A DNA stretch of 64,000 nt, taken from NCBI GenBank assembly GCA_947649625.1, contig CANSSJ010000002.1, positions 1 to 64,000 on the forward strand. Direction: 5' to 3'. The stretch is from an uncultured Bacillota bacterium. GTDB taxonomy: Bacteria > Bacillota > Clostridia > Oscillospirales > Oscillospiraceae. Position 1 is the first letter of the stretch; the number at the start of each line of letters is the position of its first letter. Shown in pieces: positions 9,078 to 16,863 of this stretch. The notes beneath the pieces were generated by a model that had not been told where the DNA came from, ran no database searches, and saw only the letters and a program-made list of their open reading frames with translations. Both the position numbers and the translations under genes were made by a program.

Positions 9078-9133
9078 AAGGATATACCGGCCAAAGGCCG
9101 TTATATTTGGGTGTGACCTATTTTTTATCCCTG

Positions 9134-9235
9134 CGCTCCCCGAACACGAACAACACCGACAACGCCTGGAACTTGAACTCCAACGGCAACCTCAACAACA
9201 ACAACTGCTCCAACACCAACGGCTCCCGCCCCGCT
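9134..9235 (+). repeat. DGR template repeat (TR)
   Basis: 102 bp with 32 A, 14 AAC codons in the VR reading frame. Aligns gap-free to 10968-11069 with 19 mismatches, all at TR adenines. Confidence 0.96.
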
Positions 9236-9479
9236 CTGATGGTAAGGCCCGACCGAGTAGGCCCAAAGCCGAAAACAGCGCCGTCCATCACATCAAAGGA
9301 GGTCACACCCAGCCCCGGACCACACCGGGGCAAACACATTGCGTTGATGCCACGCACCGCCCGGATGGGAGGTGTGGGGCTGCTGGTCCTGTCAGCCCGG
9401 CACCTAAACAGCGCATGAGGAAAGGACAGCCCGCCGCAAGAACGACAGGGGGCCGCCCGCACGAATAGGTGGGAAACCC
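9236..9479 (+). ncRNA. Candidate DGR spacer RNA between TR and RT (cDNA priming/structural region)
   Basis: 244 nt without a convincing CDS. Contains a perfect 6-bp hairpin CCCCGG-ACCACA-CCGGGG (9313-9330). Position matches the sp region of known DGRs. Confidence 0.5.
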
Positions 9480-10505
9480 GTGACATTTTTACAAATCTGC
9501 ACGTTTGCCGTGCTCTACAAGGCCTATCTGGCCGCACGGAGAGGCAAGCGAACCAGAGCGGCAACCGCCCGCTTTGAGGTCCGGCTGCTGGAGAACATCG
9601 TCAATCTCATCTACATCCTACGCACCAAGATATACAGGCCCGGCGCTTTCCAGGTGTTCTATGTCTTTGAGCCAAAGAAAAGGCTGGTACAAGCTCCGGC
9701 CTTTATTGACAAGCTGGTCCAGCACGCCATAGTGGACAATCTGCTCTATGACCGCATCACTCACGGCTTTATACTGGATAGTTACGCATCCCAAAAGGGA
9801 AAGGGCCTCCATTTCGGCCTTGACCGGCTCAAAGGCTTTTTCACAGAATACTGGAACAAATACCACACGGCTGAGGGCTGGGTCCTCAAGTGTGATGTGC
9901 GCAAATTCTTTGCGAATATAGACCATGACAAGCTCAAGGTTATGCTGAAAAAGCTGGACCTTGAGCCTGTTATTTATGATCTGCTTTGCGTTTACATCGA
10001 CTGCACGGAGGGTCTGCCCCTTGGCTACCAAACCAGCCAGCTCTTTGCCCTGCTTTTCCTCAATGGCTTTGACCACTTTGTCAAAGAGCGGCTCCACATC
10101 CGCTGGTATGGCCGCTATATGGATGACTTTTTCCTCATCCACCCGGATAAAGAATACCTGCAATTTTGTCTCCGGGAAATCCGGGCGTATATGGCAAGCC
10201 TGGGGCTGGAACTCAATGAGAAAACCCAGATTTTCCCCTTGCGCAACGGCATTGACTTCCTGGGCTTTCATACCTACCTCACGGAGAGCGGCAAGGTCAT
10301 CCGCAAGCTGCGGCACAGCAGCATAAAGCGGATGCGGGCCCGCTTGCGCCGGTGGGAAAAGGACTACCCCGCTGGGCTGGTAACCCGTGAGGTGATCCTG
10401 CAATCATGGAAAGCGTGGGACGCTCACGCATCGCATGGCAACACCTGGAACCTGCGCCAAAGGGTGCGGGACCGTGTGCAAAACATTCTAAAGGAGGACA
10501 TCTAA
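9480..10505 (+). CDS. DGR-type reverse transcriptase
   Basis: 341 aa; DVRKFFANIDHD, DGR-hallmark LGYQTSQ in place of QGxxxSP, active-site GRYMDDFFLI, and LGLELNEKTQI...DFLGFHTY. GTG start. Confidence 0.96.
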   Translation: MTFLQICTFAVLYKAYLAARRGKRTRAATARFEVRLLENIVNLIYILRTKIYRPGAFQVFYVFEPKKRLVQAPAFIDKLVQHAIVDNLLYDRITHGFILDSYASQKGKGLHFGLDRLKGFFTEYWNKYHTAEGWVLKCDVRKFFANIDHDKLKVMLKKLDLEPVIYDLLCVYIDCTEGLPLGYQTSQLFALLFLNGFDHFVKERLHIRWYGRYMDDFFLIHPDKEYLQFCLREIRAYMASLGLELNEKTQIFPLRNGIDFLGFHTYLTESGKVIRKLRHSSIKRMRARLRRWEKDYPAGLVTREVILQSWKAWDAHASHGNTWNLRQRVRDRVQNILKEDI

Positions 10506-11726
10506 ATGGCCACAACAACCCTTGGCAACAAAGCGGTAATGAGCACCGTAAAGCTCAAAGAAAACGGCGTGCTGGTGGAGTTTTACATTGCCAGGCACAA
10601 CTATGAGCCCGGCCTGAATGGGCAGGGGCGCACTCTGGTGGTCCGTAAGGACTGCTATGACCAGCGCCAGTGGCACGGCTCCAATGTGAACGCCTACGCC
10701 ACCAGCGCCATTGACACCTGGCTCAACGGTACTTATAAAAACCTGCTGGATGCTGACATCCGGGCGGTCATGGGCACCACCAAGTTTTACTATACCCCCG
10801 GCAACGGCAACACCACCAAAACCACCCTGGAGCGGTCCGTGTTCCTGCTGTCCGCCACAGAACTGGGGCAGACCCACCAGTATCTCAACACTGAGGGCAC
10901 GGCGCTGGAGGGGGCCAACACCCTCAAGATCGCCAATTACAATGGCTCCGCAACGGTCCAGTGGACCCGCTCCCCGTACACGAACCGCACCGGCAGCGCC
11001 TGGTACTTGGACTCCAACGGCGGCCTCAGCGTCGGCAGCTGCTCCGGCACCGGCGGCTCCCGCCCCGCTTTCACTCTCCCCTCCACCCTCTCTGTCAGCG
11101 ATGACGGCTCTGTGTCTGTCAACACCGCCCCCGTTATCTCTGGCAGCGCAACCCCCGGCAGCGACCTTGGCACCAAGGCCGTTGGCTTTAATCTGACCTA
11201 CACCGTGGCGGATGCAGACGGTGACACCGTGACCGTCAAGGAATATCTGGATAACGTGCTCCAGCGAACCTATACGGCCACCCTGGGCCAGACCAACACT
11301 TTCCAGGCTGTCACCGCCGCCAATTTCCAGAAAGTCCTCAACGGGGCCCACACCCTCAAGGTGGTGGCCAATGACGGCAAAGCGGACAGCGCCGCTTACA
11401 CCGTGACCTTTACCAAAAAGGTCACCAGCGCCAGCATCACCCTGGCGGAGCCCCTGGACGCCGATGACGCCATCACCGTCATGGTCCTCAACATCGTGGG
11501 CGCTCTGCCCGTTGACGCCGTGCTCCAGGTCCTGGTCACCAACAACGCCAAGGACGCCGCCCCCGTGTGGGAGGACGCCACGGCGGACATCAAGAGCGGA
11601 GCCAACCATGTCTTTGAGAACAAGACCGCCGCAAATGGCTTTGCGTTCAACTTCAAGCTGGACGTGAGCCGGGGGGGCAGTGACACCGGCGGCTATATTT
11701 CCAGCATCGGAGGTGCCTTTGAATGA
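10506..11726 (+). CDS. DGR variable protein: DUF6273/C-type-lectin-like domain with internal VR, plus C-terminal Ig-like region
   Basis: VR encodes residues 155-188 (RSPYTNRTGSAWYLDSNGGLSVGSCSGTGGSRPA). Followed by NTAPVISGSATPGSDLG...YTVADADGDTVTVKEYLDNV, an Ig-like adhesin-type region. Confidence 0.9.
   Translation: MATTTLGNKAVMSTVKLKENGVLVEFYIARHNYEPGLNGQGRTLVVRKDCYDQRQWHGSNVNAYATSAIDTWLNGTYKNLLDADIRAVMGTTKFYYTPGNGNTTKTTLERSVFLLSATELGQTHQYLNTEGTALEGANTLKIANYNGSATVQWTRSPYTNRTGSAWYLDSNGGLSVGSCSGTGGSRPAFTLPSTLSVSDDGSVSVNTAPVISGSATPGSDLGTKAVGFNLTYTVADADGDTVTVKEYLDNVLQRTYTATLGQTNTFQAVTAANFQKVLNGAHTLKVVANDGKADSAAYTVTFTKKVTSASITLAEPLDADDAITVMVLNIVGALPVDAVLQVLVTNNAKDAAPVWEDATADIKSGANHVFENKTAANGFAFNFKLDVSRGGSDTGGYISSIGGAFE
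10968..11069 (+). repeat. DGR variable repeat (VR)
   Basis: Gap-free 102 bp match to TR. 19 substitutions, all at TR-A (15 A>G, 3 A>T, 1 A>C). 3' end carries an identical 16 bp GC-rich run CGGCTCCCGCCCCGCT (candidate IMH). Confidence 0.96.
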
Positions 11727-12181
11727 GCGTTGAATACACCCAGAATAGCCTCAAGGCCATCAATGAGGCCAAGCTCTACGCCAAGCAGCGGGAGGACGCC
11801 GCCGCCATCGCCTTTGTGGTGCTGGCGGAAAACGGCCAGATTGACGCCGTGACCGCTGCCGAACAGTCCACCCTCTTTGCGGAGTGGGTGCCCGGCGTCA
11901 ACTACGCCGTGGGCAACCTCCGCCGGTATGGCGGCACCCTTTACCGCTGTGTCCAGGAGCACACGTCCCAGGAGGGGTGGGAGCCGGACAAGGCCGCCTC
12001 CCTCTGGGCGGTGACCTCTGACCCGGCGGAGGAGTGGCCCGCCTGGAGCCAACCCCTGGGGGCCCATGACGCATACAGCGCCGGGGCTAAGGTGAACCAC
12101 AAAGGCAAGCATTGGACCTCTACCGTGGACGGCAACGTCTGGGAGCCCGGCGTCTATGGCTGGGATGAGGTCACCGAATAA
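11723..12181 (+). CDS. Phage protein with carbohydrate-binding (CBM5/12-like) modules
   Basis: W-rich YAVGNLRRYGGTLYRCVQEHTSQEGWEPDKAASLWAV and WSQPLGAHDAYSAGAKVNHKGKHWTSTVDGNVWEPGVYGWDEV. Confidence 0.75.
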   Translation: MSVEYTQNSLKAINEAKLYAKQREDAAAIAFVVLAENGQIDAVTAAEQSTLFAEWVPGVNYAVGNLRRYGGTLYRCVQEHTSQEGWEPDKAASLWAVTSDPAEEWPAWSQPLGAHDAYSAGAKVNHKGKHWTSTVDGNVWEPGVYGWDEVTE

Positions 12182-15822: not shown

Positions 15823-16863
15823 ATGAACCACAAAGGAGCCACCCATTTCACACTCAATGACCGGCAGACCCTGGAGCGGATGCTGAGAAAAGGCTTTTCA
15901 AAGCCCGCTATTGCGGAGGCCCTGGGCAAGTGTGAACGGTCTATCTACTATGAAATAGGCCGGGGCCTGTGCGTCCAGCGCACCACGGACCTCATTGACG
16001 TTGAGGTCTATTGTGCGGACGTGGCACACCGCAAATACAAGGCTTTCCTCAAGGAAAAGGGCAAGGAGCTCAAAATCGGCCATGACCACGCCCTGGTCCA
16101 ACGGCTGGAGGAGCTCATCATGGTCCAAGGCTTTGCCCCTGGTGCCGCCCTTGCGGAAATCCGAAACAACGGAGAGCATTTTGACACGGAAATCTGTGAG
16201 AATACGGTCTATAATTACATCTACCGTGGGGACGTGTTCCTCTTTCTGACCCCGGAGCACCTGCATGACAAAGGCCGCCGCCACTACGCCGCCAAGAGCA
16301 AAAAGGAGGCGGCCAGGGCTCCCCGTGGCCAGAGCATCGAAAAGCGCCCGGAGGAGGTCAAGAGCCGGGGCAGTTTTGGGCACTGGGAGATGGACAGCGT
16401 TATGGGGTGCAAGGGCTCCAAGCAAGCCCTCCTGGTGCTGACAGAGCGGAGGACCCGCATGGGGATTGTCCTGCTGGTGGAGGACCACACGGCGGCCAGC
16501 GTGGTCAAGGCCATCAACGGCCTGGAGCGGCGCTTTGGCAAGCTGTTCTATAAACTTTTTAAGAGCATAACTGTTGACAACGGCTGCGAATTTCAAGACT
16601 TTGAGGGCATAGAGATGTCCCACCGGCGCAAGGGCAAGCGGACCATTGTGTTTTTCTGTCACCCATATAGCGCTTATGAGCGGGGGAGCAATGAGAACAT
16701 GAACCGGCTAATTAGACGGTTTTTCCCCAAGGGCACCAACTTTGATGAGGTCACAAAGGAGGAGGTGATGACTGCGGAGAGGTGGGTCAATAACTACCCC
16801 CGCAAGATACTGGGGTGGAAATCCGCCGCCATGCTCTTTGACCAGGAGCTCCAAGCGGCGTGA
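15823..16863 (+). CDS. IS30-family DDE transposase
   Basis: HTH N-terminus, HWEMDSVMG, SITVDNGCEF, HPYSAYERGSNENMNRLIRRFFPKGTNF, WVNNYPRKILGWKSA. Confidence 0.92.
   Translation: MNHKGATHFTLNDRQTLERMLRKGFSKPAIAEALGKCERSIYYEIGRGLCVQRTTDLIDVEVYCADVAHRKYKAFLKEKGKELKIGHDHALVQRLEELIMVQGFAPGAALAEIRNNGEHFDTEICENTVYNYIYRGDVFLFLTPEHLHDKGRRHYAAKSKKEAARAPRGQSIEKRPEEVKSRGSFGHWEMDSVMGCKGSKQALLVLTERRTRMGIVLLVEDHTAASVVKAINGLERRFGKLFYKLFKSITVDNGCEFQDFEGIEMSHRRKGKRTIVFFCHPYSAYERGSNENMNRLIRRFFPKGTNFDEVTKEEVMTAERWVNNYPRKILGWKSAAMLFDQELQAA

Follow-up and report, generated by a model that had tools for sequence, protein, structure and literature searches.

The window, the 64,000-nucleotide stretch of DNA analyzed here, carries, in a prophage of a gut bacterium, what we judge, at a probability of about 0.97, to be a complete diversity-generating retroelement (DGR) of tentaclin type. 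It offers one clean example of a phage DGR diversifying a tentaclin adhesin, with many close relatives. Its interest lies mainly in an RNA helix that encloses the template repeat (TR): the breadth of this helix across DGRs is apparent from the comparisons below, and its function we infer.

The locus is ordered avd, TR, spacer, reverse transcriptase (RT), target (Table 1). The RT contains the motifs LGYQTSQ and YMDD and matches the PDB 8ub7 series (RT-Avd-RNA of BPP-1) at 4.3e-33. The avd product also matches NCBIfam DivGenRetAVD at 3.7e-7, yet with 30 bits, under the cut-off of 80; BLASTP finds no similarity between it and the Avd of BPP-1. Profile matches identify tail tape measure, baseplate and tail-fibre genes between 915 and 8529, and an endolysin gene follows, placing the DGR in the tail module of a prophage. 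The contig starts inside the phage, and the head genes lie outside the window. The gene after the target (11723-12181) encodes a CBM_5_12 carbohydrate-binding module (2e-14), possibly part of a second tail binding protein. An IS30 family transposase (15823-16863; 5.7e-67) separates the end of the prophage from host genes, among them a minus-strand ftsH-like gene.

Table 1. Features of the DGR and RT-2 matches at other loci (window coordinates unless a locus handle is given)
Feature	Coordinates	Strand	Evidence or remark
avd, accessory variability determinant homologue, 182 aa	8529..9077	+	PHROG 3206 'Avd protein of DGR', 7.8e-25
5' arm of TR-enclosing helix, TGGGTGTGACCT	9108..9119	+	RNAalifold and pair counts
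Template repeat (TR), 102 bp	9134..9235	+	14 AAC codons; realignment and repeat search
Spacer (Sp), TR to RT	9236..9479	+	Covarying RNA structure
Helix just after TR, TGATGG (9237-9242) with CCATCA (9285-9290)	9237..9290	+	6/6 pairs in 13/13 sequences, one compensatory
3' arm of TR-enclosing helix, AGGTCACACCCA	9300..9311	+	Inner base A9300 is Sp position 65
Spacer hairpin, GCCCCGG / CCGGGGC	9312..9331	+	Strong covariation; compensatory change at 5/6 counted pairs
DGR reverse transcriptase (RT), 341 aa, GTG start	9480..10505	+	PHROG 1423, 1.3e-117; RVT_1, 3.4e-18
Target gene, 406 aa	10506..11726	+	DUF6273 (residues 40-193), then Ig-like / Hoc-like region (202-406)
Variable repeat (VR)	10968..11069	+	Target residues 155-188; realignment
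DNA just 3' of VR, TTCACTCTCCCCTCC	11070..11084	+	Coding; clade-invariant save one base in L081
RT-2 match	L057:4686-4909		
RT-2 match	L044:2552-2793		
RT-2 match	L042:1655-1881		
RT-2 match	L061:4723-4935		
RT-2 match	L059:4723-4938		
RT-2 match	L058:4685-4915		

Gap-free realignment of the TR with the variable repeat (VR) gave 19 differences over 102 bp, every one on a TR adenine: 15 A>G, 3 A>T and 1 A>C. Nineteen of the 32 TR adenines are changed and 13 intact, and all 45 C, 15 G and 10 T are unaltered. These are exactly the counts that the sequence-only reading had claimed, including its statement that no C, G or T of the TR is changed. For 19 random sites all to land on the 32 adenines, P = 1.7e-12. 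Similarity drops abruptly beyond both ends of the two repeats, and the pair also emerged as the longest family when repeats were sought without guidance. C-, G- and T-directed versions of the A scan found no pair (0/36 loci). Across the 2.24-Mb draft genome the TR/VR pair is unique, and no second VR was found. In the VR frame the TR has 14 AAC codons, and the codon table bears out the earlier claim that they diversify without producing stops: no A-substitution can create one.

The same reading had taken the pattern as evidence of mutagenic retrohoming. The setting supports this: besides the A-confined TR/VR differences, the TR is flanked by the genes of an Avd homologue and a DGR-type RT, and the VR falls within a DUF6273 target gene just downstream. 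So do sister phages, in which the same TR is found with differing VRs, changed at A.

Sister loci and the substitution spectrum

For comparison, we gathered loci with related RTs (72 on viral contigs and 64 in genomes); related RTs were also found in 22/401 same-family genomes and in 133 phage records. In the close clade, 22 TR/VR pairs showed 362 changes at A versus 4 at other bases, and 83 pairs from more distant DGRs showed 1288 versus 25, ratios that are favored by a pair finder that penalized non-A changes, which leaves the window's own 19/19 unaffected. One TR is found with four different VRs in L013, L014, L015 and L084, another with three in L018, L020 and L021, and a third with two in L022 and L023. 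On this sequence comparison, identical TRs with differing VRs show what appears to be repeated retrohoming in the lineage. Because the VRs of sister phages with the same TR all differ at A, the lineage would be an active one.

The avd-TR-spacer segments of L013-L017, L082, L083 and L084 are identical or nearly so across phage contigs and genomes labeled Angelakisella, Flintibacter muris and Bacillota, with differing VRs. Such sharing across labels would reflect either cross-genus host jumps or binning errors. The TRs of the closest sisters, L009 and L010, differ from the window TR at 3-5 positions, mostly involving A, though these are small numbers. Drift of the TR itself by A-directed events was entertained, as 3/3 TR differences to L009 involve A; the idea was dropped when other sister pairs disagreed.

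Changes in the clade (22 pairs) comprise 65% A>G, 26% A>T and 9% A>C, versus 48%, 32% and 20%, respectively, in other DGRs. The A>G excess that the earlier reading proposed to check against sister strains is thus present, but it is typical of the clade: the window's 15/19 is no different from the clade's 65% (p = 0.23), which rules out a special trait of this locus. At the second A of AAC, clade changes from the 22 pairs go to G in 81% of cases and to C in 1%. BPP-1 in E. coli has the opposite tendency in the same AAC context, with elevated A>C (PMC12875486). The AAC-context bias may serve as a lead on RT error preference, VR figures also including selection on the protein.

A helix enclosing the template repeat

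To characterize the RNA around the TR, we aligned the stretch that runs from the avd end to the RT start in 13 distinct sequences of the clade and folded the alignment unguided with RNAalifold. The fold contains a 12-bp long-range helix that pairs a segment upstream of the TR with the spacer and holds the TR inside its loop. Every one of the 12 pairs persists in 13/13 sequences, and four pairs show compensatory changes. Over the whole structure, 23 pairs show double-sided changes, versus 9.1 in shuffles and 2-9 with partners slid, controls that favor the structure since it was derived from the same alignment.

The breadth of the helix was assessed at 69 dissimilar DGR loci by searching the 45 nt before the TR against the 40-105 nt after it. 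At 40 of the 69, a gapless helix was stronger than 99% of mismatched-locus helices. When TRs and VRs of the same loci were compared, the helix strength attained around 46/66 TRs was attained around 2/66 VRs. Of the strong helices, 45/47 have two G-C pairs in common at the outer end. Each of the four Watson-Crick types occurs among the middle pairs, U-A predominates at the inner pair, and the 3' arm starts with A in 44/47, this inner A lying at spacer position 48-83; since helices were picked for complementarity, these pair-type counts are illustrative, and the mismatch and VR controls bear the statistical weight. A TR-enclosing helix is also present in FP_Brigit, nd12 and MT835552. In most of the DGRs examined, then, an enclosing helix of unrelated sequence recurs around the TR and not around the VR.

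In BPP-1, no gapless enclosing helix was found. There, AGGGCAGGCT before the TR can pair with spacer A56GCC-GGTT-CTGTCCT if a bulge is admitted, a pairing fitted by eye; duplex energies that allow bulges separate real from mismatched loci poorly (6/69 beyond 1%). At the inner end of this bulged helix is A56, which we take to be the reported BPP-1 cDNA priming site. Naorem 2017 and Handa 2018 are the studies said to place cDNA priming of BPP-1 at this base. We propose, by analogy, that A9300 (Sp65) is the counterpart of A56. A 2025 cryo-EM paper on BPP-1 reportedly describes template-flanking RNA that sets an RNA duplex into the active site of the RT. If the enclosing helix is this duplex, as it may be, it would already be known for BPP-1 and its breadth would be the new part.

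Two Rfam families bear on the spacer. Window positions 9243-9351 align to RT-2 (RF03077) at 22.7 bits (E 0.012), below the gathering threshold of 40 and so outside the family. Yet RT-2 matches of 69-127 bits lie directly after the TR in six other DGR loci (Table 1), and RT-2 appears to be a spacer RNA of DGRs. As matched, the RT-2 model begins after the TR and therefore cannot hold the upstream arm of the helix. The BPP-1 spacer matches RF03022, Phage_DGR; the Rfam search gave no match to Phage_DGR in the window.

On balance we lean slightly toward a general model in which a 12-13 bp helix closes DGR template RNAs by joining the pre-TR segment to spacer positions ~48-80. This helix would have invariant outer G-C, G-C pairs and a freely covarying middle, cDNA would be primed at the A of its inner U-A pair, and RT-2 and Phage_DGR would be the 3' halves of this one RNA. 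The helix would thereby tie two separate Rfam families to DGRs. It would also provide a sequence-only route to TR ends and to a predicted priming base in unstudied DGRs.

Mechanism and rival explanations

We envisage that one transcript is made with avd, TR, spacer and RT. The RNA around the TR folds so that the 12-bp helix joins the pre-TR segment to the spacer, as its covariation shows. RT and Avd would prime cDNA within the spacer, with A9300 beside the helix the likeliest site by analogy with BPP-1. Synthesis then copies through the TR with adenines misread, as the A-only pattern shows, and the cDNA would replace the VR in the target gene, a step supported by sisters that have the same TR and different VRs. 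Since the residues that vary belong to a C-type-lectin-like domain of a tail-module protein, the likely purpose would be altered phage binding.

The window genome presents a single VR state, which is also what a decayed DGR would leave, its VR diversified formerly and the element now inactive. This we regard as improbable, given that RT, Avd and target are all encoded by intact frames, YMDD is present, the RNA structure is intact, and relatives with 97-98% identical RT have different VRs. A>G transitions make up the majority of changes, as might be produced by ordinary duplication with A-biased mutation (deaminase-like, for instance) or by gene conversion, either of them operating without reverse transcription. 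Such an origin is barely credible. A>T and A>C account for 35% of clade changes, and the changes end exactly at the TR/VR limits, leaving flanking A bases unaffected; the presence of transversions, together with such abrupt ends, rules out simple A deamination. Moreover, RT and Avd adjoin the pair, and related TRs are common to sisters while VRs differ. Mutagenic retrohoming by an intact DGR is the reading we prefer.

For the helix itself, the alternative is an operon regulatory or terminator structure acting outside the RNP. Phage intergenic helices often regulate transcription, and the arms lie near the end of avd and before RT. We nonetheless consider this role unlikely: the helix spans the TR in unrelated DGRs with little variation in length (12-13 bp) or spacing, is missing around VRs (2/66, versus 46/66 TRs), keeps its GG/CC and inner U-A pairs while other pairs vary, and is without a terminator U-run.

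Target protein, homing site and known systems

The DUF6273 match in the target (9e-26) spans the VR, and the C-terminal region matches a Hoc-like PHROG at 3.5e-88. DUF6273 has a C-lectin fold, and the tentaclin layout has been described, as has the rarity of a VR near the 5' end of the target gene (PMC10743442); the layout also occurs in Faecalibacterium prophages (PMC11792537). The window target has an N-terminal C-lectin/DUF6273 domain with the VR, followed by Ig-like domains that include the conserved C-terminal Ig, as judged from profile and sequence matches. By this layout the target is classed as a tentaclin, and the DGR would belong to an uncommon but published subtype. A structure model of the target (mean pLDDT 67, <50 at residues 141-184) is too weak in the VR region to bear on the fold there. 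In fold searches, the PDB yielded Ig-like matches and the viral models yielded DUF6273 proteins, at low TM-scores. Targets of close sisters are ~406 or ~605 aa (L009:6027-7844, L013:6026-7843 and L023:6026-7834, versus 10506-11726 in the window), as if Ig-like domains had been added or removed and the VR domain left in place.

Homing in BPP-1 needs a GC-rich hairpin 4-34 bp after the VR (PMC3240598). No hairpin of this type was found after the window VR: the best scored 13.5 (6 bp with wobble), versus 24 for the BPP-1 control, and this weak hairpin is missing in L022, L081 and L085. At their 3' ends, TR and VR are identical over the last 16 bp, which are GC-rich (CGGCTCCCGCCCCGCT), as in the BPP-1 type. 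The nearly invariant DNA just beyond the VR (Table 1) may be an extension of the homing signal within coding sequence.

Among the systems most like this one are the tentaclin-type DGR phages nd4 and nd12 (OR777945, OR777946; PMC10743442), whose targets likewise have an N-terminal DUF6273/C-lectin VR domain and then Ig-like domains. The nd12 RT is 48% identical to the window RT, and the C-terminal 217 residues of the targets are 41% identical. A second target gene is present in nd4 as well as nd12, whereas only one VR was found in the window genome, and their targets have three Ig-size units rather than two. The Faecalibacterium phages FP_Brigit and FP_Toutatis and related prophages (PMC11792537, MG711465) have in common with the window the avd-TR-RT-target order and an RT that is 54% identical. 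The Hoc-like target of FP_Brigit is 42% and 54% identical to the window target over two segments, the latter being the C-terminal part, but targets of this type are longer (617 versus 406 aa), with more Ig domains. The prototype, the BPP-1 DGR, has A-only mutagenesis and the combination of Avd, RT and TR in common with the window, and its Brt is 31% identical to the window RT. Its target, Mtd, has the VR at the C-terminus with a strong hairpin after it, whereas the window VR is internal to the gene.
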